Shown here piece by piece: positions 10,946 through 61,327 of a stretch of DNA of 64,000 nucleotides. Made by a program: the position numbers and the translations under genes. Below the pieces are notes generated by a model, which ran no database searches, was not told the DNA's origin, and saw nothing but the letters and a program-made list of their open reading frames with translations. Within the stretch, counting starts at the first letter, position 1, and the number at the start of each line of letters is the position of its first letter. This DNA is from Rubripirellula reticaptiva (GTDB lineage: Bacteria > Planctomycetota > Planctomycetia > Pirellulales > Pirellulaceae): assembly GCF_007860175.1 (NCBI RefSeq), contig NZ_SJPX01000003.1:817380-881379 (forward strand), read 5' to 3'.

Positions 10946-11932
10946 TCAAGATTTCGGTTCAATAAGACGCCATCGTTCGTCAGCGTACTTTGCTTTGAGA
11001 GCATCCAAGTTCGATGCGATTTCCTTTTCTTCACCAACGATCAACCAATAGCGATATCGAAACGTTGACTTGGGACTGAGCATAACGCGATCGACCGGGG
11101 CGACGTGCATGCAGGGTCCGTCGGTGGGATTGTCGCTAAGCCCACCGCCGTGAGGACCGAAGTTCCAGCTTTCACCAGAGGTCGGTGAATAGACGGCAAC
11201 TCCCTGGCCGGATGCTTCGAACATTGCCATCGCCTTGAGTGGCGGATTGGCTCGGCCCCAAGGAGGGCCCGGCGATTGGTGCTCGGTTCGCCATTTGCCC
11301 TCGCCTAGATAGGTTCGCACTGAATCGAAGTTACGCGTGAAATAGCAAGCGGGAAGTTCTTGTGGGCTCTTTCTGGCGGCGCCCCATGGATCATCTTGGC
11401 GCCGCATCGCTTGAATTTCGCACCGTACACAAACGACGCCCGGAAGGGTTTGGTCCAACGTCGTCCATTGACGCATCACGGCATCTGCTTCTTCGTCGGG
11501 CATGTCCCATAGTTTTGGGATTGTTTCCGAATACAAGGCATTCTCATCTTTTCGAAACACTGTCACGCGTGACCACGTTCCGTTGCCGCCAACACTACCG
11601 ACGCCACCACCCTGAATCGGATTCCATGTCCACGGACTCCATGCCTGGTGTTGCCCCGCCGATGTCCGGTCAAGTCTGCGTCCTGCATAGTAGGACTGCT
11701 GGATCAAGCGACCTGGGTCAGCAATGTTGACGATGTTGTTTGGATACCTGTCGGACGATAACCAAGTGACGGCCCCGCCTTTCTCGCGATCAATTCCGAC
11801 TTTTACTGAGCCATTGTCGATCGTTAGCAAATCTTCCGCGGAAACCAGATTCAGAGAAGAACAGCAACTCAAGAGGCAAATTGCTTGCCAACAGAAGCAT
11901 TTGGTATGAAGAAGTGCCGAAACGCAGTTCAT
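10946..11932 (-). CDS. Unrecognised secreted protein, possibly beta-sandwich carbohydrate-active
   Basis: This 328-residue protein has an N-terminal hydrophobic, cysteine-rich signal (CWQAICLLSCCSSLNLVSA). After it comes LLTIDNGSVKVGIDREKGGAVTWLSS, which resembles the opening beta-strands of mutarotase-like or lyase beta-sandwich domains that bind sugars. It is rich in Trp, Gly and Tyr (for example HQAWSPWTWNPIQGGGVG), as in carbohydrate-binding surfaces. I do not recognise a named family. It lies between two sulfatase genes on the same strand, with 58 bp to the downstream one and 89 bp to the upstream one. A role in polysaccharide recognition or degradation is inferred from that position. 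Confidence 0.7.
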   Translation of the reverse strand: MNCVSALLHTKCFCWQAICLLSCCSSLNLVSAEDLLTIDNGSVKVGIDREKGGAVTWLSSDRYPNNIVNIADPGRLIQQSYYAGRRLDRTSAGQHQAWSPWTWNPIQGGGVGSVGGNGTWSRVTVFRKDENALYSETIPKLWDMPDEEADAVMRQWTTLDQTLPGVVCVRCEIQAMRRQDDPWGAARKSPQELPACYFTRNFDSVRTYLGEGKWRTEHQSPGPPWGRANPPLKAMAMFEASGQGVAVYSPTSGESWNFGPHGGGLSDNPTDGPCMHVAPVDRVMLSPKSTFRYRYWLIVGEEKEIASNLDALKAKYADERWRLIEPKS

Positions 11933-12021
11933 CGAAAAAGCCTAGGTTTACGGAAGTTCGTGCGAGTGCCTTGTGTTTATCTGAACACGGCTCAGGGTTG
12001 TCGCGAGGGCGGCAGGCCGTG

Positions 12022-13842
12022 TTACTGCATCAGCGTTACCGTTTTCCCGCTAGCGGGTTTCAGTTCGATGGACTTGATCGAAGTGGTACCGGCGGGAATT
12101 TGGACACGGACATGAATGATCTTCGGCCCGCCGGGCAGGCTGGTTTGGATTGTTTGCCACTGGTCGGACTTTGTGACCACAAGGTTCACGCGATTAGCCG
12201 CGACAAATTCCTTGTCGTGTGAGTCTCGCCAAGCCAGTCCGATCGTGCCGGAGTTTGTCGTCTTCACAACCAGATTGACGGAAACGGGGCCGGCAAGATT
12301 CAAACCATTTCTGGTAATGAAAGGTGTTTGCTTGGCATCTTGCTTTTGCGTTGCTATCTGCAAGCCCTCGCTGCTGATATTCATTTTGCCGTTACGAATG
12401 ATCCATGGAGACGCTAGGTCCTTTGATTTTGCGTCGGAGTTTGACGAGTCTGTTTTTGGAACGAATTTTTCACGTAGGGACGCTGCCGGTTTGTGGTCGA
12501 GGTAGAAATCAAAATATTCTGTCGCCGCGTTGGACATGCTACCGCTGGCGAGACCCGGCGGGTCGAGCTCGCTGGCCCACAGGGATAGCTTCTCGCGTAG
12601 GCGATCGGCAATCTCTGGATGCTCGTCGGCGAGGTTACGTTTCTCTTCGAGATCATTCTTCAAGTCGTACAAGTATTCACGTTCGCCGCCGCGCAGCAGT
12701 TTCCAGTCGCCTTCACGGATGGCCGATTGGGCAACCCAACGCCACGCGAGAAATTCATGCGGAGCTTCTTTCTTTTTACCCGTAAGAAACGGGATCAGAT
12801 TGACGCCGTCGAAATCTCCGGGTTCCGATTCGATCTTAGCCAGTTTGGCAGCCGTTGCTGCGACATCCAGGGCGCTCACCGGATGATCGAACACTTGGCC
12901 GGCGGGAATCGTTCCAGGCCAAGAGATCACGAACGGAACGTGCATGCCGCCTTCGGATAGCATCCCCTTTTCGCCGTTGAGCGGGTCGTTCAAAGAACCG
13001 TCCCAACCTGGCCCGCCACCCGGTGCATCTCGCTTGTGAATCTTCAATGGCGCGCCGTTGTCGCCGATATAGAAGATCAGCGTCTTTTCGGTCAGGTTGT
13101 TTTCGGCCAGTGTCCTGGTGATCAACCCGACGCCATCATCGACAGCCGACAGCATCGCCAACGCCTGCCGACGTCGCTCCGGCATTTCGCCCGGAAATCG
13201 ATCGAGGTACTTTTGCGGCGCATCCAATGGGACGTGGGGCGCACGGTAGGCGACATACAGAAAAAATGGATCATTTTTGTAACGTTCGATTAGCGAAGCG
13301 GCGGCCTGGCTGCAAGCGTCAACATGATACATCTGTTGCCGCTGCGTCGACATCTCTCGGTCTCTGCCATCAAGACCCACATTGGCCGCGAAGGGTGCGC
13401 CGGAGTTTTGGTTGAACACGTGCTTGAATCCGTGCTCAGTGATTTTCGGTCCCGGACCGAGGTGCCATTTGCCGAATTGCGCGGTCACGTAACCCGCTCT
13501 TTGCAGTCGCTGGGCAATCGTCAGCTCTCGGTCAAAACCCTCCAACGTTTTTCCGTTGGCTTCGACGCCGAATTTCGATTGGAACTTTCCGATCAACAAT
13601 CCCGCTCTCGACGGCACGCACTGCGGTGCAGTGCTGTAGCCATGCCGGGCGAGTACACCATTCTTTGCTAACGCATCCACATTGGGCGTCTTGATGTCCT
13701 CGAGAACTCCTTGACATGACAAGTCCGCGTGCCCATGGTCATCTGTGTAGAACACGATGATGTTGGGGCGTGATTCTGTGGCGTTGGCAAACGTTGCAGA
13801 AAGCCAAACCAGCGAAACGCAGAATGCTATGAACTTATACAA
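12022..13842 (-). CDS. Secreted sulfatase with C-terminal beta-rich extension; probable TTG start
   Basis: This type I sulfatase has metal ligands in FYTDDHG and formylglycine motif CVPSRAGLLIGKF (Cys at about residue 75 from the chosen start). An ATG at 13980 would add 46 residues and overlap the upstream gene's 3' end. A TTG at 13842 instead begins directly with the signal peptide YKFIAFCVSLVWLSATFANA and has AAGG about ten bases upstream, so I chose it. After the sulfatase core (to about 470), a ~130-residue tail (for example ITRNGLNLAGPVSVNLVVKT) looks like a beta-sandwich accessory domain. It sits between the cytochrome/propeller gene and the unrecognised secreted gene. Confidence 0.9.
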   Translation of the reverse strand: MYKFIAFCVSLVWLSATFANATESRPNIIVFYTDDHGHADLSCQGVLEDIKTPNVDALAKNGVLARHGYSTAPQCVPSRAGLLIGKFQSKFGVEANGKTLEGFDRELTIAQRLQRAGYVTAQFGKWHLGPGPKITEHGFKHVFNQNSGAPFAANVGLDGRDREMSTQRQQMYHVDACSQAAASLIERYKNDPFFLYVAYRAPHVPLDAPQKYLDRFPGEMPERRRQALAMLSAVDDGVGLITRTLAENNLTEKTLIFYIGDNGAPLKIHKRDAPGGGPGWDGSLNDPLNGEKGMLSEGGMHVPFVISWPGTIPAGQVFDHPVSALDVAATAAKLAKIESEPGDFDGVNLIPFLTGKKKEAPHEFLAWRWVAQSAIREGDWKLLRGGEREYLYDLKNDLEEKRNLADEHPEIADRLREKLSLWASELDPPGLASGSMSNAATEYFDFYLDHKPAASLREKFVPKTDSSNSDAKSKDLASPWIIRNGKMNISSEGLQIATQKQDAKQTPFITRNGLNLAGPVSVNLVVKTTNSGTIGLAWRDSHDKEFVAANRVNLVVTKSDQWQTIQTSLPGGPKIIHVRVQIPAGTTSIKSIELKPASGKTVTLMQ

Positions 13843-47727: not shown

Positions 47728-47815
47728 GTAGAATCAGGCGGCTTCTTTGCCTGTTTCGAAACAGAATCCAGTACCAGCGCAAACTTCACAGCACACTCGC
47801 ACCCAGAGCAGCACC

Positions 47816-48790
47816 GTGGCATCTGACTTTCGGCTGAAAGAACAGCTTCCCAACCTGACCGAAGAAATCCTGGCGACTTATACGCCCGAAGACTCGATCA
47901 ACCATCTTGGGCACTGCGCGCTGCCAAGCTATACCGGGGTGGTCGAGATTCTGTTGAACATCAAAGACATTCTGTATCCCGGCTACCGCCGCAAAGTCGG
48001 TTTGCACAAAGGCAATATCCGCTACCACGTCGGTGGTCTTGTCGACACGCTTCACGATCAATTGACGACTGAGATCGCGCGTGCGTTACGGCACGAAGAC
48101 CGAGTGACGGCCAAACACAATGACTGCGAAAGCGACATTGATTTCGAAGCCAAAGGTCAAGCGATGGCAATCGAATTGCTGAAGTGCTTGCCGAAGCTTC
48201 GTCGCACTCTGGCCACCGATGTCCAGTCGGCCTACGACGGTGACCCTGCCTGCCAGACGACGGACGAAGTCGTGTTTTGCTATCCCGGATTCGAAGCGAT
48301 CACCGTCTATCGGATCGCGCACGAATTGGTGCGACTGGATGTGCCCTTCATTCCACGAATGATGACCGAGTGGGCTCACAAGGAAACCGGCATCGACATT
48401 CACCCCGGTGCGACGATTGGTGACTACTTCTTCATCGACCACGGCACCGGTGTCGTGATCGGCGAGACTTGCGAAATCGGCCAGCACGTCAAGCTCTATC
48501 AAGGCGTGACCCTGGGCGCGCTCAGTTTTCCAACCGACAACGAAGGTGCGCTGATTCGCGGCCAGAAACGGCACCCCACGATCGAAGATCACGTGGTGGT
48601 TTACGCGAACGCGACGATTTTAGGCGGAAGAACGATCGTGGGCCACGACTCGGTGATCGGTTCAAGTGTTTGGATTACCAAATCCGTATCCCCTTATACC
48701 ACTGTGGTACTTGAAAAACCGCAACTGAAAGTCCGCGGCGCATCGTCGGATAACGATATGTTCGAGCACAACTCCAACTTCCAGATCTAA
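47816..48790 (+). CDS. cysE: Serine O-acetyltransferase
   Basis: The enzyme acetylates L-serine with acetyl-CoA, the first committed step of cysteine synthesis. The start is uncertain: the GTG at 47816 gives a product of 324 residues that begins at conserved-looking sequence ([17 protein letters not shown]), whereas an in-frame TTG at 47747 (AGGCGG upstream) would add 23 low-complexity residues. The helical N-terminal domain includes [12 protein letters not shown] and FPGY-like LYPGYRRK. The left-handed beta-helix hexapeptide domain covers the C-terminal third ([43 protein letters not shown]). The partner gene cysK is in the same window at 57343-58290. Confidence 0.93.
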
Positions 48791-48862: not shown

Positions 48863-50854
48863 CTACACCTCGACTGGCATTCTCGGCGTCGCGACAAAAG
48901 CGTTCAGGCGAGATACTTGGACGGATTCGACCACGAACGTCAAACGATGGTTGGGCTGTATTTCACCACGGATGAATTCCAGGATGTCGGTGCATACCGC
49001 AGGCGTGACCATAACTTCGAGCCGCACTCGCGGAACTGCCGCGATTGAGTCTCCGTCAATCTGTTGTTTGCCCACACCGCGACAATCGACCGATGTGTAA
49101 CCCGTCGCGCCGCGTCTGGCGAACTCGGCCGCCAACAACGGTTCAATTTCGGGATCCGTCATCAACGTGATGCGTTTGATTGAGCATAGGCCTTTGCGAC
49201 GAGCAGCGTCCTGGTGAGAGGTTAGTGGTTGATGCTCGTCCAATCCAATGACTCGGAATACGAGTCCCGCTTGCTCGAAATCCTCGGTCACCTCGTGAAG
49301 CTTGTCCATCACGGTGTGGTCGACGAATTCCGTTTCAGACAAGTCGAAATCAATGTTCTTGCGTTCCAGCAAGCCTGCGCTTTCGATCAAACGTCGGATC
49401 GGGATCCAGTTACTGAACACCGCCGACTTGTAGGCAACTAGGTGTACTGTTTTGCCGTCATCGCCGGCAATTTCCACGTCGGGTTTGAACAGCGAACGCA
49501 CGGGGACGCCATTGGACAGGTGGATGATCGCCTTGGCCGCGATTCCGATGGCAATACCGATCAACAAGTCTGTGGCCAACACGGAAACTAAAGTGATCAC
49601 GAAGATGATCAACTGTTCGCGGCCGATTCGCCACGCGTTCATGAACTCATGGGGGTGAGCCAAACGGAATCCTGTATAGATCAGCATCGCGGCAAGAGCA
49701 GCCATTGGGATGCGGTGCAGGATCATCGGGATGATCGCAACGCAAACGAGCAAGAACATGCCGTGCCAAAAATCGGCAAAGCGAGTTCGCGCGCCGTTGT
49801 CGATGTTTGCTTTGCTACGAACAATTTCTGAAATCATCGGCAAGCCACCGACCATTGACGCACAAAGATTGCCTGCACCAACGGCGATCATGTCGCGGTC
49901 CATGTTTGTCTTCCGACGCCAAGGGTCGATCAAGTCGACCGCTTTGGCGGACAGCAACGATTCCAAGCTGCCGATCACAAAGAACATAAACACCCATGTC
50001 CAAGCTTTGGGTTGCCGAAGCGCCGAGAAGTCTGGTGTCGTGATCTGGTCAAACATGCCAAACACGCGATCAGGCATCGCAACGAGATACTGTTCACCGA
50101 GCTGGTAGTCGTGATGCTGAAGCGTGTAGCTGTGCGCATGCATCAAGTCGAAAATCATGCCCATCGGAACTGCGACTAGCAACACGATCAGCGGCGATGG
50201 AAAGAGCTTGGCGAATGAGAATTTTCGACCGACTTGCGGCCACAAAAACATGATTAAGATACTGACCACGCCGATCGACGCGATCGCCGGGTTTGCTTCG
50301 GCAACGTAGTTCGGAATATTCCTCAGCATTTCCAGCGGCCCGCCTGATGCCGTGACGCCGAGCGCTACTGGAACCTGTTTTGCGATGATGATCACACCGA
50401 TCGCTGCCAACATGCCGTGGACTGCCGAGACCGGGAAAAACTCGCCCAGGATCCCTGCGCGAAAGAACCCAAAGCAGACCTGCAGGACCGCTGCCGCGAC
50501 ACCGACCGCAAGCGCGGCGCGATAGGCGCTCACGTCGGCTTCTGACCATCCGCCCGCGATGCCGTCGCCACCAAATGCTTCGATGCATCCGATCGCGATG
50601 ACGATCAGACCAGCGGCGGGGCCTTTGATCGTCAGTTCAGAATTACTGATCACAGTCGCGACGATCGAGCCCACGATTGCAGTGAAAATACCTGCGATGG
50701 GCGGATAGCCGCTGGCGATCGAGATGCCTAAACACAGAGGAAGCGCGATCAAGAAGACCAAAAAGCCTGACACCATGTCAGCCTTGATGTACTTGACAAA
50801 TCCCGCGGCATTGCCCTTGGGAATTTCTCGATCGTTCGATGGAGGTACGTTCAT
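48863..50854 (-). CDS. SulP-family anion transporter fused to STAS and PII-like domains
   Basis: The 663-residue protein begins with a SulP membrane domain of 10-14 helices (about 20-445; [62 protein letters not shown]). A STAS domain follows (about 468-545, [20 protein letters not shown]), then a C-terminal domain of about 90 residues (557-648, [40 protein letters not shown]) resembling PII-like signalling proteins. SulP proteins carry sulfate or bicarbonate. The ATGA overlap with the preceding NuoL/DabB-like gene in a DabA operon points to bicarbonate, with the PII-like part as regulator. Sulfate uptake is the alternative. Confidence 0.87.
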
Positions 50855-52404
50855 GGTTGTGGGGTTTCGATGTGGCCGGGTGGGGTAAGAATGAACGAAT
50901 CGCTGTTGGATTCGTTCGAATGGTATTCGCGCTCTTGGTGTATTGACTCAATCGTTTCATTGGCGTCATCGGAATGGTCGACGACTTCGTCCGCTTCCTC
51001 GACATCGATCGTCATCGGGTTTTGTTGTCGTTGTTCCGACAACTCGTTCGCCGCGTGATATCGAGATGCGACGCCGGGTTGCGGAACTAGCCCGCCCCCG
51101 ATGATCAGAACGCTTAGGACCATCACAGCGATCCGTTCGGATAGTCTGGCATGCATCGGAATCAAAGTCGCATTGGATCGTCCGGTAAAGATTCGGAAGT
51201 ACGCCAGCATCACCGTGATGCCGCAGAAAGCCGCTGCGATGACGACCATCGTGCCGACCAGGGGATAGACTTCGACGGCGCCTTCAATCAGCAATTCCAT
51301 GCCGACGAATCCGACCGTAAACGGGAACCCAATTGACGCTAGTCCGGTCAGCAGGAAGAAACCTGCCAACGTTGGCATCTGACGATTGAGCCCGTGAAAG
51401 TCAGCCAGTGATATCCGCGAGATTCTCGCTTCGATCGACCGCAGCGTGATACCAAATCCGGTCAACGACATTCCCACCGACAACCAAACGCAAAGTGCAC
51501 CGGTCAAACCGATCGGTGTGACCAATTCCAATCCAACCAAAACCAGCGATGCTTGGCTTAGGAACAGGAAACAAAACATTCGGCGTGCTTCTTTCTGCAC
51601 CAGTGACATCGCACCCCCATAGACCGCAGTCGTCAACGACAAAATTGCAATGCTTTGCAGCGCCCAAGACGGCGCGATCGGTAACACAAAACGCATGACG
51701 GCGTAGGCACCGGTCAGCGGAGTCACAAACAGGATGGCGGTGCCAAAGGTGGCCTTTTCAAACAGGTCGGTCATCCACAGATGTAGCGGTGCGATTCCGC
51801 TGCGGATCAGCGCAGCGGCGGTCAGCAAAGCACCGGGAATCAAGACGGCTTCGGACGAACTATCCGTGAATTGAAGTGAGGCCCAGCCCAGCACCAACAA
51901 AATGACGAACGCAAACATGTGCAGCGCGTAGATGCGAGTGCAACGACTTCGACGTTCTAATTCGATATAAACTGGCACCGTGGCGGCAGCCATCAACGCA
52001 ACCAAAGTCCACGATGCACGACAACTGAACGTTGCCAGCAGAATCGCCTCCGAAACCAGCGTCGAGGTCAACGAGAAACGTGGCGCCTTGGTACGCAACG
52101 TCGACATCACAACCACCAAGTGAATCAATGCACCCAGTGGCAACAAGAATGCGCTGAGTTCATCAACGACGAATACTTCTTGGTCAAAGAGCCAATTGAT
52201 GAACGCCCAGTGATCGTGCGCTTCGAAGGTTCCCAGTGTGACAAAGTCAATCAACTCACCCACCGTCAAGGCGAATGTTAACGCACAGAAAGCAACAGCT
52301 TGGCGAAGCGAATTTTCGGGATGCGCAAAGAAACGAATCCAGATTGCGCCCAAAAGTGGAATCAGAATCGATGATTCTAGCCACGGGAAATGCAACTCAC
52401 CCAT
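50851..52404 (-). CDS. Second NuoL/DabB-like proton-translocating membrane subunit
   Basis: The ATG at 52404 has GGAGGA nine bases upstream and begins [20 protein letters not shown]; an upstream frame to 52530 lies inside the preceding gene. The ~517-residue protein has about 13-14 hydrophobic segments and antiporter-subunit signatures ([56 protein letters not shown]). It matches the Proton_antipo_M family, which covers NuoL/M/N, MrpA/D and DabB. An acidic cytoplasmic tail ([21 protein letters not shown]) follows the last helix. The start lies 1 bp after the preceding stop, and the stop overlaps the SulP start (ATGA). Confidence 0.87.
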
Positions 52405-52405
52405 C

Positions 52406-53800
52406 TTAGGTCTTCCTCCCGGTTGATTCCGGATGCAATTCGGCTTTGTCGGATTCACGCGACTCTTCGTGAGATATCCAATCGGTTGTGGCACGCTCCC
52501 ATGAATCGAAACGTTGGAAGATTGAAACAAAGGGCGCTACAATCCATTGGTCAAGCGCCGTGTCCATGAACCCGCGGCCAAACCCAAATCGATAGCACCA
52601 TCGTTCTAGCCAGACGGGTATCCATTGATCGATTCGTGATCGGGAAGTCGGCAATCGGCTACCCAATGCGTTTTCCATCGTTTGGTAGTCACGCAGCAAC
52701 GTCGGAGCACGCAACAACTGCATCGTTCGCATGCAAGCGTGGCCGACGATGTGGATCAACGCCAAGTATTGGAACCCCAAACCGATTTCGACCACGATGA
52801 TGCCGACCTGTGTCAGCGACGCATAAGCAAGCGAAACTTTCACGTCGTGTTGGACTCGCGACATTAACGCCCCACTCGCCGCTGACAAAACACCCAGCGT
52901 TATCACCATCACACGTAGCGTCATCGAGACATCGAACAGCGGACTGACCCGCAGCAACAGATAGGCACCTAAGTGAACCGACAGCGCGCCATAGAAAATG
53001 GCACTCGACGGTGTCGGTCCTTCCATTGCGCGAGGCAACCAGCCCGAGAACGGAAATAATGCCGACTTGCCGGCGGCAGCAACCAACAACAACGTGCCAA
53101 CAAACAGTGCTTGTTGAGGTGTGACAGCAGCCGTCCCGTCTGGCCAAATGCCACTGCTCATCAAGCCGCCAAAGTCACCTTGGCCGGTCATGTGGTGTAT
53201 CGAAAGAGCGGCGATCAAAAACGCAGCATCCGACAATCGATAAATCGACCAAACTCGCTGTCCGCTACGAACCGGTGTCTCGCGTTCGTCAAAGTACGCG
53301 ACCAACAGAGCGGATGACAAACCGACCATTTCCCATCCGACGAACAGCGTTTCAATGGTCCCGGCTAACGATGAGGTCACCATGCCGGTAAAGAACATCG
53401 CATAGTACAAAAAGAACCGCGCATAGCCCGCTTCGCGGTGCAAATACCGGCGTGTGAACGAACCGACCACGCCGCACAGCACGCACGACAGAATCACAAA
53501 CGGAACGCTCAACCGGTCAAACACGAACTTCAAGTGAAAATGAAAATCGTGTTGCGGAATGGTCACCCAGTCGCCCCATTCGATCGGAACGTAGCGTGTG
53601 CCCAAAACCAACATCATCGCCAAAATTCCGATCGCAGGAATTAGCGAAAATAAGACCGACGCCTGCGTTAAACGGGAAATCGAGCTCTCGTTTAGCGGGC
53701 GTCCTGACAGCGCAGACAGCCCCAGAATGGCAAGCAAAATAGCTGGACTCGCGACAACAGCAGTCCCTAGCAATTGGAAGACAATTTCAGTCGTGTTCAT
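52406..53800 (-). CDS. dabB: DabB-like proton-translocating subunit (NuoL family)
   Basis: This 464-residue membrane protein has about 12 helices. Family segments are [87 protein letters not shown], and a lysine-bearing helix ([19 protein letters not shown]). This is the proton-antiporter fold (Proton_antipo_M) that partners DabA in DAB complexes and is thought to couple proton flow to inorganic-carbon hydration. GAGG lies six bases before the ATG, and the start overlaps the dabA stop (ATGA). It is about 80 residues shorter than some DabB homologues but shows no disrupted frame. Confidence 0.9.
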
Positions 53801-56800
53801 TTGCCACCTCGATTCGACTCGAGGTCATTGGAAGGTTCGGTTGCGAACGCAGCACCGATCGAAGCAAAGCTTCGGTGTTCGCGGCGGTTGCCGTACCAAT
53901 CCATGGACGACGACGCCACCGGTAGTGTGTCGGTGGTTGGGACATAAGTTTGAAAGCGTCCGTCGTTAAACACTTTGATCGCCGAAGTTTCACCATCGAA
54001 AACAGCCAGCTGAACCCAGCGTCCGGTCACCAATCGATTGATTGTTTCGTTGTTTTTCATGATCGAGAGCATTTTTTGCGGTGTGGTTTCGATCACAAAG
54101 AGCATCCGCATCGGTTCGTGGATCTCGATCATCTGCTGTGACAATCCGGGACGCAGATCGCTGGACGCGCCAGTCATCACGCCCAACATCGACGAGATAT
54201 TGTGGGGTAGTTTCGATCCGCAACCGTAGCCTTCGTTGTCAACGGTCGAGAAATAGTACTCCAGCCCGATGCCTGCACAGACGGGGATCGCGGCGGCTAG
54301 GATCCGAGCCAAAATGGTGGCGTCATCGTCGTCGATGGCTGGATCGTAAGACGTCAAGAACGACCGTCGATCCAGGAACAGTCCCTGACTCCATTCGCGT
54401 CGCCCCACCAACACCATCGCCGAGGTCGCGTGGTTGTATTCGGGCCGAGCTTGGGAAAGATCCTCGGATCGCTGCTCGACATGTTCGAGAGCTAACTTGG
54501 GTGTCATATCCAAGGGAGCGGATTCGAACCGTCGCGATCGTTCATGAGCGTTTCGAGCTCGAGCCTCGTCAACAGATGCTTCGATGCGACGGAACAGATT
54601 GCGATGCGAACGTGGCAACAAGTCCAAGTCATAGTACTGGACTGCATCGCTGCAGGTATTGTGATAGGCACCCACAAAGCGAACGTCGTCGGTCAAGTTG
54701 ATGCCGCGCTGGGCCACGATGGCACGGACTCGCGAATCGTTCGCCATCATGCAAAACGCTCGTGCATTCGGACCTCCACGGCCACCGCTGCAAGCGCCGC
54801 AATTGTAGGCCGATTCATGCGGATTATTCAGGCTGCTTGATCCGTGGCCAAAGAACACCGTGATCGGAGGGAAGTTTTCGACCATGCCGATGTCTTGCAA
54901 AATTCGCACGACAATCGTTGCCATTTCGGGCAAGCTGTAGCCGAGTGCGTCGAAGTCCTGCCCCGGTTCCTCGGTGATCCGTTCAATGTGCAACTCGGTT
55001 GCTGGCGGACGGGTGAGCGACCCGACAAGTTCGCGAATCTGCGCCGTCAATCTTGGCGCCAAAATTCGTGCGACCAACGGAAACGTCGCTAGCGCACCAA
55101 AGATGCCGGTGATCCATCCGCCCAGCATGGTTCGTGAACTAGCGTGGACCTGGTGAGTCACGGTTCCGATGCGGCGACGGCGTTGAGCACGTTTTTCGTT
55201 GTCTTCGACCGACGAGAACAAGGGTTCTTCGCGGACATAGTGCTGGGGCGTGATCACGTTCGGGCAAAGCGGCCGATAATTGGCGTGGTCTGCACCTTGG
55301 TAATACATCGCGACCGCATAGAAACCGGCCGCCGAAGAAGTCTCGCACTGCGGGTCGACTTCTTCGAGGTGCCGACGAATCGATTCTTCGCGATCGTCGA
55401 TGCAGAAGATCGCTTGATAGGCGGGTGGCGATTTGGCTTCGGTTTTCGCTCGCGCGGCGACACGTTTTCCGTGGATTGCCAGAGCGTCGAGAGCTTCGGT
55501 TCGGTAGTGTTTTTCATATGCCAGGTGAAGGATTCGTCGCCGATCGAGTTCCGAAAAAGCTTCGATTTCGCTGATCAATCGTTGCCACTGGGGCGATGAC
55601 GTCGTCAGCAATTGTGCGGGCATCCAGCCACCGGTTTGTGCCAGTTGGAAAACGGTATAGGTCCGCTGTTCGACCGAGGCAATCGGCGTCGCCGACGCTT
55701 TGGCCGAGGCATGAGTATGAATTTCACGCAGGTCTTCGGTGCCGTACAGTCGCTTTCCTGCATCGGCGATCGCGTGACGTTCTAAGATCAAGTGGATCGC
55801 AAGGTACTCGTCCAACGATCCCGCCGGTGCCGGCTTTGGAAAGAACGGCGCGGCGGTTTCCATTTGCCAGATCATTCCAGCCCAACCGCGCATCGCCAGC
55901 AACGTTTCGCCGATGTACTCGTCCTGTTCGGCTTCGTCGATGCCGAGCATCTCAATCGACTGTGCAATCGAATCGTGCGCGTCCCACTGGCCGTTCGCAA
56001 TCGCCCGCAATTCGTCTCGGATCGGTTTCATCCAGGTAGGCATCATCGAAAACGGCTGCAGAAACAGCTTTGCAAACGAAACTGCGAATCCTTGTTCTCG
56101 CTCGGGCAACGACAGGCCGGCAAAACCTTGATCGAGGAAACAGCCGCAAAAGCGAATCAGTGTTTCATGAACCGGTTGGTCGGTATCGATGCCGGTTGCC
56201 GCTAACAGAAGGTCGCGGTGTCGCAACTGTTTTGGCATCGACGGGGTCGCCAAACCAGCCTGTTCGACTCCGCGGTGACAAACCGTCCACAACAGCTCTA
56301 GAACGAACGCGGTCCATTTCGCGGGCGACCAGAACTCGATGTTGTGGTCGCGAAACTTGGCTAGCAGCGACTGCAACATCGCTGCGTCTTCACTGCTAAG
56401 TGGCGTCGTCGGTGCCGCGTTCGGGGGGCGGCTCTTAGTGTCGTTGCCGGCTCGGTGACGAAGCACCCAACTACGAGTGCTGGCGACGACCTGTTCGATG
56501 TCGCGAGTCGAAACAGAGTCGTTGAACTTGCGAAGCAAATCAGATTCGGCCAACAACCATGTCAGTTCCGCGTCGGGGACTGCGTGAGGCGGCATTTGCA
56601 ACATAGAAAGTCGCAGCGTGTAGCGAGTTCCGAAAGTTGCAATCAGGTCATCGGCTTCGTCGCCCAGATCCGTTAGCAGCACGTCGCATACATCGTCGAT
56701 GCAGATCCGTCCGCGGCTCAGGGCGTCACGATAACGGGCTTCGGACAAATACGGTTCGCAGTGATACATCGAACCGCCCACCAACACCGCGTCTTCGAAG

Positions 56801-57003
56801 GGCAATTCTTCGAACGAATGCAGAGTGTTGTGGTGGACGAAGATCGAGATCGGGCCTTGTGACGGCAAGTAGTGCGTCGCGTGGTGAATCGACTCTTTGA
56901 TTCGTTCCACTCGGTCGTTCGACACCACGCCAGCGACGTCGCCGTCTGCCGAAGTTGCCAATGAATCTTGGGAAGAGAGTGCATTGGAAGGAAATTCGTG
57001 CAT
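53797..57003 (-). CDS. dabA: DabA (DUF2309) zinc protein of the inorganic carbon transporter
   Basis: The ATG at 57003 starts MHEFPSN; the open frame to 57063 begins with TTG and is unconserved. The ~1068-residue protein matches DUF2309, now DabA, a beta-carbonic-anhydrase-like protein that hydrates CO2 in a complex with DabB. The expected zinc ligands are present: C534 and D536 in [14 protein letters not shown]720 in [12 protein letters not shown], and C735 in [10 protein letters not shown]. Their spacing (C-x-D, then His to Cys of 15) matches the Halothiobacillus protein. The N-terminal half ([21 protein letters not shown]) is also conserved. It is the first gene of the four-gene unit, with 339 bp of gene-free DNA upstream. 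Confidence 0.92.
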
Positions 57004-57144
57004 GCTAGAAGGGCTGCGAGAGGATCGGCATTGTCGCGGCTCCGTCGATCCGGCTCCACGCAATTCCTTTCACAATGCACGCCATGTGCCAACCGCCATC
57101 ATGCACGAAGGCGGCAATCGATTTCACAGCAATTCGCCGCAGAA

Positions 57145-57161
57145 GAAATTTTCGAAATTTC
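57145..57161. promoter_or_regulatory. Candidate operator dyad upstream of dabA
   Basis: GAAATTT-TCG-AAATTTC is a perfect seven-base inverted repeat with a three-base spacer, about 150 bp upstream of the dabA start. Its A/T-rich dyad resembles sites for LysR-type or other dimeric regulators, but no regulator gene is adjacent. Confidence 0.3.
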
Positions 57162-57298
57162 GCCGCCACGCGTTAGAAAACGAAACACTGCAATCGTCTG
57201 CATTCGGCGTGCAAATAGTTGCACGCTGGATTCTGCATGCTGAGCTCGCTGGCAAGAAAGGCCTGCAGCCGATTGCAACGCCGATCAGATTCGCAGGT

Positions 57299-57331
57299 CC
57301 CAAACAGGTTAGCAGCCTGTGGTAATTTGGG
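57299..57331 (-). terminator. Candidate nested hairpin downstream of cysK
   Basis: CCCAAA pairs with TTTGGG, and between them ACAGG pairs with CCTGT around a seven-base loop. It lies about 12 bases beyond the cysK stop on the minus strand. No T-run follows, so it may act with Rho or as an RNA 3' end. Confidence 0.4.
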
Positions 57332-57342
57332 TTGCCAGTTGG

Positions 57343-58290
<948 letters not shown>

Positions 58291-58364
58291 GCTCTCGCGA
58301 AAGTTCAACGTTTGGGAAATGTTCTGTCGTTGCCTCGCGCATCAAAGCGACGAGGCGATTCAAC

Positions 58365-59372
58365 CTATTTGACGGTCCATGTGTCGCCAGCCGAAAACAG
58401 CTTGTCTAGGTCGCCTTCGCCCTTGGTCGACTTGGCCGTTTCAACTTGAGCGTTGATTTGGTCGTCGTACGTTGCTACACCTTCAACGGCTCGCAGGACG
58501 CCGATCGGTTCAGGCATTTCGGGGTAACTCATTCGAGCCAGCATCATGTGGATCGATGGGTTCGGCGCCTTTTCGTCGTGGATCAGCAAGTCGTCCGCTG
58601 GCACATCGGCGGTATTGACGATTTCCAGGTGGTTGCCAACCAAACGAATGCCCTTTTTGCCTTCGTCAAAGATCAATGGTTTGCCATGCTGCAGCTCGAT
58701 CACGTTTTGAGCACGCTGTTTCTTTTCTTGGGCGTACGCCATCGCACCGTCATTGAAGACATTGCAGTTTTGGTAGACCTCGACCAGTGACGTGCCTTTG
58801 TGAGCGGCCGCGCGAGCAAGCGTTTCGCCAAGGTGTTTGACGTGCGCGTCGATGCTGCGAGCAACAAAGGTTGCTTCGGCAGCAAGGGCTAGCGAAAGCG
58901 GCATGATCGGGTGATCGATCGATCCCATCGGCGTGCTCTTGGTGATCTGACCTTCCTTGCTGGTCGGGCTGTATTGACCCTTGGTCAAACCGTAGATGCG
59001 GTTGTTGAACAGCACGACGTTGACGTCGATATTTCGGCGCAGCATGTGGATGAAGTGATTGCCACCGATCGACAAGGCATCGCCGTCGCCCGTGATCACC
59101 CACACCATCAGGTCGGGACGAGTCGATTTCAGGCCCGTCGCGAAACCTGGCGCACGCCCGTGAATCGAGTGCATGCCGTACGTGTTCATGTAGTACGGAA
59201 AACGGCTGCTGCAGCCGATGCCGCTGATGAAGACGATCTTTTCGCGAGGCACGCCGAGTTCCGGCAATACCTTTTTCATTTGAGCTAGGATCGAATAGTC
59301 GCCACAGCCGGGGCACCAACGCACGTCTTGGTCGGATGCGAAGTCGGCAGCTTTCAGTACAGGAAGGGACAT
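58365..59372 (-). CDS. korB: 2-oxoacid:ferredoxin oxidoreductase, beta subunit
   Basis: This 335-residue thiamine-diphosphate subunit decarboxylates 2-oxoglutarate (or pyruvate) and passes electrons to ferredoxin. Four cysteines match the [4Fe-4S] set of two-subunit enzymes: C20 and C23 in WCPGCGDYS, C53 in GIGCSSRF, and C202 in QNCNVFNDG. The thiamine diphosphate motif is GDGDALSIGGNHFIHMLRRN, ending NNRIYGLTKGQYSPTS. The usual substrate for the two-gene form with a fused gamma-alpha subunit is 2-oxoglutarate, hence the symbol, but other 2-oxoacids cannot be ruled out. It is 80 bp after korA. Confidence 0.92.
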   Translation of the reverse strand: MSLPVLKAADFASDQDVRWCPGCGDYSILAQMKKVLPELGVPREKIVFISGIGCSSRFPYYMNTYGMHSIHGRAPGFATGLKSTRPDLMVWVITGDGDALSIGGNHFIHMLRRNIDVNVVLFNNRIYGLTKGQYSPTSKEGQITKSTPMGSIDHPIMPLSLALAAEATFVARSIDAHVKHLGETLARAAAHKGTSLVEVYQNCNVFNDGAMAYAQEKKQRAQNVIELQHGKPLIFDEGKKGIRLVGNHLEIVNTADVPADDLLIHDEKAPNPSIHMMLARMSYPEMPEPIGVLRAVEGVATYDDQINAQVETAKSTKGEGDLDKLFSAGDTWTVK

Positions 59373-59452
59373 GGAGAGCAGTGCTAGGTTTTGAGTGTTA
59401 GATGTTGGGTTGAAACAGGCGAATCAGCGGTCGAGATTGACCAGGTGATTCA

Positions 59453-61327
59453 CTATTCGTTTTCAGCGGCGACCACGATCTCGGTAAACCGTTCGACCAG
59501 CTCGGTGACTGAGAATGGTTTGCCTTGAACTTTGTTGATGCCGATACAGTCGACCAAGTGTTCTGAGCGTAACAACATTCGCAGTTGTCCCGAGTTCAGT
59601 TCTGGCACAACGACTTTCTTGAACGACTTCAACAACTTGCCAACGTTCGCGGGCATCGGGTTGAGGTAACGCAAGTGAATGTGGCTGATCTTGTGGCCAG
59701 CTTTTCGGACACGGTCCACTGCCGTATGGTTCGAACCATACGTGCCTCCCCACGAAACAACTAATAAATCGCCTGTCTCCGCGCCGAACACGTCTTGTGG
59801 CGGCACTCGGTCAGCAATCATCTTGACCTTCGCTGCTCGCGTATCCGTCATGTGCTGGTGATTGTCGGGATCGTAACTGACATTGCCCGTCACGTCTTCT
59901 TTTTCCAAACCACCGACGCGGTGCATCAGTCCAGGTGTTCCTGGGACCGCCCAAGGACGAGCCAAGTTTTCGTCTCGCTGGTACGGCTTGAAAGCCGTCT
60001 CGCCGTCGCTGCCTTCGGGGTGAGTGATTTTGATCTTCGGCAGATCCGCGATCTTCGGTATTCGCCACGGCTCGCTGCCGTTGGCGATATATCCGTCCGA
60101 CAAAATGATGACCGGACACATGCACTCGACCGCCAAACGCCAGGCTTCGATTGCAATGTCGAAACAATCGCCAGGCGAACGTGGGGCGAGGACTGGCAGC
60201 GGAGATTCGCCGTTGCGGCCAAACATCGCCTGCAACAAATCGCTTTGCTCGGTCTTCGTCGGCAAGCCAGTGCTAGGACCACCGCGTTGGACGTCGATGA
60301 TGATCATCGGCAATTCAAGAATCATGCCCAATCCCATCGCTTCGCCCTTGAGCGCGATGCCGGGACCACTGCTGGCCGTGACCGCCATCGATCCACCGAA
60401 CGCTGCGCCGATCGTCGAACAGATCGCTGCGATTTCGTCTTCGGCTTGGAAAGTACGTACGCCAAAGTTCTTGAACTTCGTCAACTCGTGCAGAATGTCA
60501 CTGGCCGGCGTGATCGGATAAGTGCCGTAGAACATGTCTTTGCCGCTGATCCGCGACGCAGCGACCAAGCCCATTGCGATCGCTTGGTTACCCATGATGT
60601 TTCGGTACGTGCCAGGAACCAGTTCGGCGGCTTCGACTTGATAGCTCTCGCCGAACGCTTCGGTAGTTTCGCCGAATGCCCAACCGGCGCGTAGAGCAGC
60701 CACGTTTGCTGCGGCGACGTCTGGTTTCTTGCCAAACTTGGCTTCGATGAAACGCAAGGTCGGTTCAAGCGATCGGCCAAAGAGCCAGTACACCAACCCC
60801 ATCGCGAAGAAGTTCTTGCAGCGATCGGCAAGCTTGACGCCTAGATCGAAACTCGACACCGCATCGCGAGTCAGCGTGGTCATCGGAACTTTGACGACGC
60901 GATAGGTTTCTTCGATCACGCTGGCGTCCAGCGGATTCGATTCGACTTTGGCGAGCTTGAATTCTTTATCGTTGAATCCGTCTTCGTTCGCGATCAGGAT
61001 CCCCCCCTTGCGCAGGTCACTGAGGTTGGTGACCATCGCCGCCGGGTTCATCACAACAAGCGCGTCCAGGACATCGCCGGGCGTGAAGATCTCTTCGCTC
61101 GCAAACTGGACCTGAAATCCCGAAACACCGGCCCGAGTACCGCGAGGTGCGCGGATTTCGGCGGGGAAGTCGGGGAAGGTGGCGACGTCATTCCCAGCCA
61201 GCGCGCTGGTATTGGTCAATTGCGTGCCCAGCAATTGCATGCCGTCGCCAGAGTCACCGGCCAAACGCACGGTGATGCCGGATACGGATTGAACGTTTTT
61301 GATAGTCGTGGGGGAGGAAGCCGTCAT
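59453..61327 (-). CDS. korA: 2-oxoacid:ferredoxin oxidoreductase, fused gamma-alpha subunit
   Basis: This 624-residue protein has an N-terminal gamma domain (about 15-190, VRLAGDSGDGMQLLGTQL, FPAEIRAPRGTRAGVSGFQV) joined to the alpha domain. The alpha part shows the family signature GTYPITPASDILHEL and the substrate loop GGPSTGLPTKTEQSDLLQAMFGRNGE. It pairs with korB, encoded 80 bp downstream. The enzyme is oxygen-tolerant in some aerobes and here probably replaces or supplements the 2-oxoglutarate dehydrogenase step. No separate delta (ferredoxin-like) subunit was seen next to it. Confidence 0.93.
   Translation of the reverse strand: MTASSPTTIKNVQSVSGITVRLAGDSGDGMQLLGTQLTNTSALAGNDVATFPDFPAEIRAPRGTRAGVSGFQVQFASEEIFTPGDVLDALVVMNPAAMVTNLSDLRKGGILIANEDGFNDKEFKLAKVESNPLDASVIEETYRVVKVPMTTLTRDAVSSFDLGVKLADRCKNFFAMGLVYWLFGRSLEPTLRFIEAKFGKKPDVAAANVAALRAGWAFGETTEAFGESYQVEAAELVPGTYRNIMGNQAIAMGLVAASRISGKDMFYGTYPITPASDILHELTKFKNFGVRTFQAEDEIAAICSTIGAAFGGSMAVTASSGPGIALKGEAMGLGMILELPMIIIDVQRGGPSTGLPTKTEQSDLLQAMFGRNGESPLPVLAPRSPGDCFDIAIEAWRLAVECMCPVIILSDGYIANGSEPWRIPKIADLPKIKITHPEGSDGETAFKPYQRDENLARPWAVPGTPGLMHRVGGLEKEDVTGNVSYDPDNHQHMTDTRAAKVKMIADRVPPQDVFGAETGDLLVVSWGGTYGSNHTAVDRVRKAGHKISHIHLRYLNPMPANVGKLLKSFKKVVVPELNSGQLRMLLRSEHLVDCIGINKVQGKPFSVTELVERFTEIVVAAENE

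Follow-up and report, generated by a model that had tools for sequence, protein, structure and literature searches.

The locus described here raises the question of what a dab-type operon with an extra antiporter-family gene does in a cell that has no Rubisco. The operon lies in a 64,000-nucleotide stretch of the genome of the planctomycete Rubripirellula reticaptiva (assembly GCF_007860175.1, contig NZ_SJPX01000003.1, positions 817,380 to 881,379; hereafter the window, in whose coordinates positions are given). It consists of four open reading frames (ORFs) that are open throughout and run head to tail on the minus strand from 57003 to 48863, for DabA, the NuoL-like DabB, a NuoM-like protein and a SulP-STAS-PII fusion. 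We consider it probable, with a good deal of room for doubt, that the operon specifies a vectorial carbonic anhydrase (CA) driven by the proton-motive force and belonging to an uncharacterised class of DAB, together with an anion transporter that carries a PII-like sensor.

DabA and its two antiporter-type partners

The original prediction that the four genes are joined by ATGA overlaps or a 1-bp gap was borne out. The DabA/DabB and third gene/SulP junctions read as 'ATGA' overlaps, and DabB and the third gene are separated by 1 bp ('TAA-G-ATG'). The dabA start was placed at the ATG at 57003, although the frame opens further upstream, at a TTG at 57063. Pfam assigned PF10070 to DabA (E 5e-223, 743 bits against a cut-off of 25), PF00361 and PF00662 to DabB, and PF00361 to the third gene. 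The marks of a DAB/DAC pump are thus present, namely PF10070 above its cut-off, the zinc ligands with the Asp-Arg dyad, and an adjoining NuoL-family subunit. Those of the DAB2 type, the finger glutamate E444, Leu658 and a 15-helix DabB, are absent.

The subunits were aligned with those of DAB2 from Halothiobacillus neapolitanus (PDB 9rd0), the only solved DAB that we found, and with those of related loci having the gene order DabA, NuoL-like, NuoM-like (A-L-M, the window class). The residue and gene-order counts exclude the duplicate contigs L114, L117 and L135, and one locus cut at its start (L164) was counted with the two-antiporter loci for residues and with the four-antiporter loci for gene order. 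The canonical reference rows were all planctomycete, plus H. neapolitanus DAB2, and a second sample comprised 20 proteobacterial-class loci.

The zinc site of DabA is intact. Its cysteine and the Asp-Arg dyad are kept in 94/94 class rows covering the site, and the other two zinc ligands (H/C) in 98/98. The surroundings of this site differ from DAB2. In the transmembrane finger, where the E444 column falls on G633 in one alignment and one residue aside in others, no acidic residue occurs from −8 to +10 residues in any of the 98 class members, the window included, while all eight canonical planctomycete DabAs have the finger Glu. An AlphaFold model of DabA retains the helical hairpin at this place (helices 596–622 and 626–648). 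At the Leu658 site, where beta-CAs have the Gln/His of the transition state, the class has His in 94/98 rows and Asn in the other four, and the eight class-type DabAs of the second sample all have His. This residue is Leu in 8/8 canonical planctomycete DabAs and in 11/11 DabAs of loci resembling DAB1 (see the last section). When the DabA model was compared using VIA-align, the four best structural rows were beta-CAs, with CsoSCA first; a Foldseek search with the model gave no match at E ≤ 0.001. In CsoSCA, too, the transition-state position is occupied by a His.

A full beta-CA zinc site with its Asp-Arg dyad, a His at the transition-state position and a beta-CA fold all argue against a system that performs Na+-coupled bicarbonate import, as proposed for MpsAB, or ion exchange, without hydrating CO2. 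Such a function would suit antiporter-family subunits, and MpsAB has been argued to be Na+-coupled, but DAB2 needed no Na+ (PMC13144422), and we regard this explanation as improbable.

DabB, whose best solved matches are NuoL/ND5 chains, departs from DabB2 both in key residues and in length. DabB2 has 15 helices, and has Ile151 where complex I has a Glu in transmembrane helix (TM) 5 (PMC13144422). The class DabBs have Glu at I151, Tyr at H260 and Arg at K347 (DabB2 numbering), each in 86/86 rows. A model of the window DabB, built from a 51-sequence alignment with a pLDDT (predicted local distance difference test) score of 89.5, shows 11 membrane helices by our own count, followed by a helix of 35 residues. 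The aligned ranges reach past the NuoL core to residues 549–572 of E. coli NuoL, so this last helix may be a counterpart of the NuoL lateral helix. Zero or one helix was predicted after TM11 in 93/96 rows from multi-antiporter loci (the duplicate contigs not filtered out, and the remaining three, with a longer helical tail, untraced), compared to four or five in 8/8 canonical rows. The earlier description of DabB overlooked this shortening.

By its best solved matches, which are NuoM/ND4 chains, the third gene is NuoM-like, and its best NCBIfam model is NDH_I_M (132 bits, under the cut-off of 263.8). Among 79 aligned NuoM-like members (window included), the TM5 Glu and the TM8 Lys occur in none, the TM7 Lys is replaced by Arg in all 79, and the TM12 acid is present in 78. 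With these losses and the Lys to Arg replacement, the third gene is not simply a second DabB. The prediction of two DabB-like subunits was therefore right in that an extra antiporter-family subunit is present, and wrong as to its kind, since the subunit is NuoM-like and degenerate.

NuoM and NuoL meet in complex I through the C-terminal half of the former and the N-terminal half of the latter, so the NuoM-like TM12 acid is on the half that would be expected to face DabB. By this analogy, the TM12 acid and the TM5/TM7 charges of DabB suggest one shared proton path, with the DabA finger in the gap left by TM12–15. L and M were seen in one ORF only at L156, L231 and, in a cut locus, L219, and such natural fusions agree with an L-M contact. 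(Apparent fusions in L060, L062, L063, L112, L118 and L121 were rejected, because the DabB and NuoM matches lay in different frames of long high-GC reading frames.)

We propose the following mechanism. In DabA, CO2 would be hydrated at a zinc site like that of beta-CAs, complete with their His. The two membrane subunits would be placed next to each other in the manner of NuoL and NuoM in complex I. DabB would provide the half-channel to the cytoplasm together with the face that bears the TM5 Glu and TM7 Lys, and of the NuoM-like subunit only the C-terminal half would take part, its TM12 acid turned towards DabB. The DabA finger would occupy the place of the missing TM12–15 of DabB, and proton entry through the joint path would make the hydration of CO2 one-way. 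Bicarbonate would then accumulate in a cell that lacks Rubisco, to be used by carboxylases and in pH control, and the co-transcribed transporter, probably for bicarbonate, would carry its own PII-like sensor.

A rather unlikely alternative is that DabA and DabB work as an ordinary DAB2-like pump, and that the NuoM-like protein is a lid for the helices that DabB has lost. The loss of the TM5 Glu and TM8 Lys throughout the NuoM-like family would be in keeping with a lid, as would the conserved zinc site. However, TM12–15 and the finger Glu both complete the proton path of DAB2, and both are missing here, while the NuoM-like protein keeps its TM7 Arg and TM12 acid almost without exception, which is more than a lid would need.

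Table 1. Features of the operon in window coordinates.
Feature	Position	Strand	Basis
DabA (PF10070), predicted vectorial beta-carbonic anhydrase subunit	53797..57003	-	1068 aa
C534-x-D536-x-R538, zinc Cys and Asp-Arg dyad (DabA2 C351, D353, R355)	55390..55404	-	alignment
H720, zinc ligand (DabA2 H524)	54844..54846	-	alignment
C735, zinc ligand (DabA2 C539)	54799..54801	-	alignment
Transmembrane finger hairpin region, residues 620-650, without acidic residue	55054..55146	-	alignments
H858 at the DabA2 L658 position (beta-CA transition-state Gln/His position)	54430..54432	-	alignment, ungapped around the site in one
DabB, NuoL-like	52406..53800	-	464 aa; 11 membrane helices counted on model; without TM12-15 equivalents
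E157, equivalent of NuoL TM5 E144 (Ile151 in DabB2)	53330..53332	-	alignment
C-terminal 35-residue helix, residues 409-443; possible counterpart of the NuoL lateral helix	52472..52576	-	model
NuoM-like third subunit, degenerate antiporter subunit	50851..52404	-	517 aa; Pfam, NCBIfam, PDB matches, alignment
R201, replacing NuoM TM7 K234	51802..51804	-	alignment
E370, retained TM12 acid, one residue after the NuoM E407 column	51295..51297	-	alignment
SulP-STAS-PII fusion	48863..50854	-	663 aa; Pfam PF00916 and PF00543; aligned relatives
SulP transporter domain, residues 24-421	49592..50785	-	Pfam
STAS-like domain, about residues 455-555	49190..49492	-	alignment, not called by Pfam
PII-like domain, residues 560-650; closest solved relative TTHA0516 (2cz4)	48905..49177	-	Pfam, PDB match
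Intergenic stretch, cysK to dabA; probable promoter region	57004..57342	-	ORF table and sequence

Recurrence of the gene order and the length of the antiporter arm

Of 60 kin genomes, 23 contained DabA relatives, a figure that counts the genome of the window itself as well as ordinary DabAs. Across the phylum, 16 of 246 genomes, again with that of the window, had the NuoM-like gene at E ≤ 1e-30; in one of the 16 (L064), the fetched stretch shows no DabA. A scan of named genomes gave at least 80 loci, of which the best 80 were titled as belonging to Planctomycetota, Verrucomicrobiota, Acidobacteriota, Myxococcota, Actinomycetota, Armatimonadota, Chloroflexota, Elusimicrobiota and Pseudomonadota; going by such titles, the A-L-M class is present in at least eight phyla.

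Gene order was assigned by profile search. The search for the gene order, which the original prediction had proposed as a check in its four-gene form, recovered A-L-M in 84 of the 98 non-duplicate loci of the window class. Of the remaining 14, ten end at a contig edge before M, a single ORF combines L and M in L156, only an L is present in L086, and both subunits are missing from L108 and L169. SulP accompanies A-L-M in 40/84 loci: directly downstream with PII, as in the window, in 22, downstream without PII in four, upstream in 11 and divergent in three. In the other 44, no SulP was seen in the fetched stretch. This recurring block is not due to chance.

Longer arms occur as well. Six complete loci (L155, L160, L163, L166, L168 and L171) have the order M-A-L-M-M; this four-antiporter group is proteobacterial, from methanotrophs, Nitrosomonas and Nitrotoga. 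Two of the three M subunits in these loci keep the full complex-I-type charge set (16/16 for the M subunits that do not adjoin L), and the L-adjoining M does not. The latter has the Arg without the TM5 Glu in 6/6, as in the A-L-M class; the pattern is not identical to that of A-L-M, since the TM8 Lys is kept and no TM12 acid is found at the counted columns. Three loci, from Rubrobacter, another Actinomycetota bin and Chloroflexota (L157, L159 and L162), have M-A-L-M-M-L, with a DabA of about 1300 residues (frames of 1298–1387) and five PF00361-type genes by profile. Their first NuoL-like gene carries a C-terminal extension of 250–300 residues with repeats and a final membrane helix. The three five-antiporter DabBs that were read have a full NuoL core plus about 250–300 residues ending in a last membrane helix, which looks like the NuoL lateral helix and its anchor. 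A cut fourth member (L158) is titled Acidobacteria. His occupies the Leu658 site in 10/10 four-antiporter and 4/4 five-antiporter DabAs, and the finger segment contains an Asp in 7/10 and 2/4, respectively, with a Glu elsewhere in the segment in one four-antiporter row.

In a DabA tree of 112 rows, the loci with one, two, four and five antiporter-type genes each fall on one side of a branch, with SH-aLRT (Shimodaira–Hasegawa-like approximate likelihood ratio test) values of 100, 95, 100 and 97, respectively; the three changes required for four groups are the minimum. The tree was built quickly and came with warnings about long branches and composition; in it, rows hiding M at a contig end were labelled 'two' by default, L158 was labelled 'five' by hand, and 14 listed loci (fragments, duplicates and cut loci) were left out. 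We tentatively raise the possibility, which is more speculative than the mechanism proposed above, that DabA is a plug-in CA head on a complex-I-like arm of one, two, four or five antiporter-type genes. If so, the H+/CO2 ratio would be set by how many proton channels are functional, and with it the steepness of the bicarbonate gradient at a given proton-motive force. The window class would be a short arm in which two subunits share one channel, combined with an active site like that of beta-CAs. The four- and five-antiporter forms would be natural variants in possible proton number.

CO2 hydration provides too little energy to pump several protons outward, which speaks against the operon running in reverse, with the DabA reaction driving outward ion pumping, or with CO2 or bicarbonate being vented for pH control. 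We consider this very unlikely. It would suit the complex-I-like subunits and the full NuoM-type charge sets in the four- and five-antiporter relatives, and reverse pumping was proposed by the authors of the 2017 COGNAT survey (PMC5700660); however, DAB2 was reported to accumulate inorganic carbon, and this was stopped by an uncoupler (PMC13144422).

A few loci have unusual surroundings. L232 and L234 encode a window-type DabA (with His) and have no antiporter gene in stretches of ≈7 kb on each side; L232 also contains a 400-residue, ten-helix ORF (11843–13042) that by eye resembles a chromate-type transporter. In a Verrucomicrobiaceae bin (L131, 2013–16432), two A-L-M operons from different branches of the class face each other. 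L218 (377–12308) has the order SulP-STAS, DabA, ORFs with MbhD/MbhE and MnhB domains, an MrpD-like PF00361 protein, a 696-residue NuoL-like protein and a NuoM-like protein, and looks like a DabA inside an Mrp-type operon.

The SulP-STAS-PII protein, the flanks and the host

In the fourth protein, Pfam called PF00916 and PF00543 (P-II; E 5e-10, 40.1 bits against a cut-off of 25). Pfam made no STAS call; the STAS-like domain is supported by alignment with full-length SulP/SLC26 chains and relatives. The best solved match of the PII-like domain is TTHA0516, a hypothetical protein (E 6e-7). In 24 aligned fusions (window included), the Gly-rich stretch, the R.E motif and the Cys are mostly kept, while the T-loop region is variable. 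In cyanobacteria, the PII-like protein SbtB binds the SulP transporter BicA (PMC13249358), which makes a fused regulator plausible. The two transport modes and internal sensor suggested earlier fit these predicted domains.

The operon is flanked by genes related to cysteine synthesis. Upstream, on the same strand, are cysK and genes for the beta and alpha subunits of a 2-oxoacid:ferredoxin oxidoreductase (57343–61327); downstream and convergent is a serine O-acetyltransferase-like gene, cysE (47747–48790). A link to sulfur metabolism was considered on the basis of cysK and cysE and dropped, because the cysK, cysE and korAB neighbourhood was present in only 2/124 related loci (in stretches of unequal length), both listed under the same genus.

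A further explanation, which we regard as fairly unlikely, is that SulP-STAS-PII moves sulfate or dicarboxylates for cysteine synthesis and has no connection with the DAB genes. Apart from the flanking genes, NCBIfam is in its favour: the BicA equivalog model scored 118 bits against a cut-off of 880, and the generic sulP and DauA models scored higher, all below their cut-offs. The nearest named relatives are from Rubripirellula, and one close relative has the database name DauA. On the other side, the cysteine-gene neighbourhood is rare, whereas SulP stands by A-L-M in nearly half of the loci, and the window SulP is 33% identical over 417 aligned positions to another SulP in the genome that is fused to a beta-CA domain (L176, 1459–3420). 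The best PDB match by E-value, 6ki1, is listed as a 'low affinity sulfate transporter', and is the bicarbonate transporter BicA.

The earlier note that there is no Rubisco gene in the window extends to the whole assembly (given as 99.93% complete), in which PF00016, the Rubisco large subunit, had no matches. The same genome has a 1173-residue ORF with a PYC_OADA (pyruvate carboxylase) domain, which suggests a demand for bicarbonate in the cell. PF00484 had a single match, the SulP fusion in L176, in a search that covered the beta family alone among CA families. A role of the window operon in supplying bicarbonate to carboxylases in a cell without Rubisco is therefore plausible, and would represent a heterotroph with a dedicated bicarbonate supply and a built-in candidate sensor.

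Several observations weigh against the proposed shared-path pump. The lost residues of the NuoM-like subunit could mean that it is a mere scaffold, and its TM7 Arg sits on the half other than the one expected to face DabB. The order of subunits in the membrane is drawn by analogy with complex I. In DAB2, E444A and E444Q abolish activity (PMC13144422), and the loss of so essential a residue may mean that coupling in the window class is broken or different. Leu658 was reported to be strictly conserved among 150 homologues, replacing the beta-CA Gln/His, yet changing it to Gln, Gly, Ala or Asn did not impair DAB2 activity in vivo (PMC13144422), so the His at this site may matter little. The genome also contains a second DAB set, an ordinary DabB-then-DabA pair (L085), and the window operon may thus do something else. 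Related DabAs without antiporter genes nearby exist (L108, L169, L232 and L234), and the DabA of L218, with several antiporter genes, keeps Leu658 and has a finger Asp. Finally, the flanks here are those of cysteine synthesis.

Comparison with known systems

The statement in the original prediction that DABs described so far use DabA plus one DabB could not be upheld, as systems with more membrane subunits are on record (PMC5700660, PMC7714395, PMC13144422). In the literature searched, which did not extend to Desmarais 2019 and Schmid 2021, no experimental study of the A-L-M class was found. The gene order itself had been noted in the 2017 COGNAT survey, in which DabA upstream of NuoL, with NuoM and SulP, forms 'clade C' (PMC5700660). 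The window has the same order (ybcC/DabA, a nuoL homologue, COG1008 NuoM and COG0659 SulP) and is assigned to that clade by gene order. The survey's authors guessed that more membrane genes mean more ions moved; its cited passages provide gene order and this guess at ion number, and hold no topology or fusion analysis (PMC5700660).

DAB2 shares with the window a DabA of family PF10070, in which the zinc ligands and the Asp-Arg dyad are the same, and a NuoL-family DabB with equivalents of K229, K310, H339 and H343. Unlike the window, it has one membrane subunit, the finger E444, Leu658, and a 15-helix DabB2 that has Ile in place of the TM5 Glu and carries His260 and Lys347. The window has A-L-M, no finger acid, His858, and an 11-helix DabB with Glu, Tyr and Arg at these positions.

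The other H. neapolitanus system, DAB1, has a third membrane gene (PMC7714395, PMC13144422), and its genes are arranged as NuoL, a transmembrane hypothetical protein, a 1046-residue DUF2309 protein and PII (PMC4633670). It resembles the window in having more than two genes, a PII nearby and a long DabA (1046 residues), but its order (L, small membrane ORF, A, PII) is not that of the window (A-L-M-SulP). Eleven loci of the second sample look DAB1-like, with a full-length L upstream of a long A. All 11 have the finger Glu and Leu658, neither of which is present in the window, and at the TM5 site, they have His (ten) or Gln (one). A PII match lies downstream in 4/11, and a membrane ORF of roughly 250 residues was present in both loci checked (L217 and L224). 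The equivalent of Cys351 falls at 461–493 in 6/11 and higher in the rest, which are stop-to-stop ORFs; in DabA1, it is C462 (PMC7714395). We infer that these loci are DAB1 orthologues. Since their layout and residues differ, neither characterised H. neapolitanus system appears to belong to the window class; DAB1, set apart through the DAB1-like loci with its own sequence unaligned, probably differs. DAB1 had been considered as an A-L-M member because of an eLife passage that gives it an extra PF00361 gene, and was dropped on the same grounds. The interstitial ORF of the DAB1-like locus L217 matched no Pfam family, and the quoted PF00361 label was not confirmed for that ORF.

Complex I and Mrp (NuoL-NuoM and MrpA-MrpD) share with the window a pair of L and M subunits, with the TM5 Glu and TM7 Lys on L and the TM12 acid on M. 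Unlike them, the window operon has no electron-transfer or small Mrp subunits, and has a CA-like partner. BicA or SulP with an SbtB-type PII resembles the fourth protein in combining SulP-STAS with a PII-like partner, which in the window is covalently fused.

Thus, what appears to be new here is the set of departures from DAB2 in residues and topology, rather than the gene order. Explanations of DAB2 have invoked a glutamate in the finger, an active site lacking Gln/His, and a NuoL-like subunit that is proposed to be held open. The A-L-M class lacks each of these and keeps the zinc site, and a comparison of the two classes would make the coupling of proton flow to CO2 hydration directly testable.

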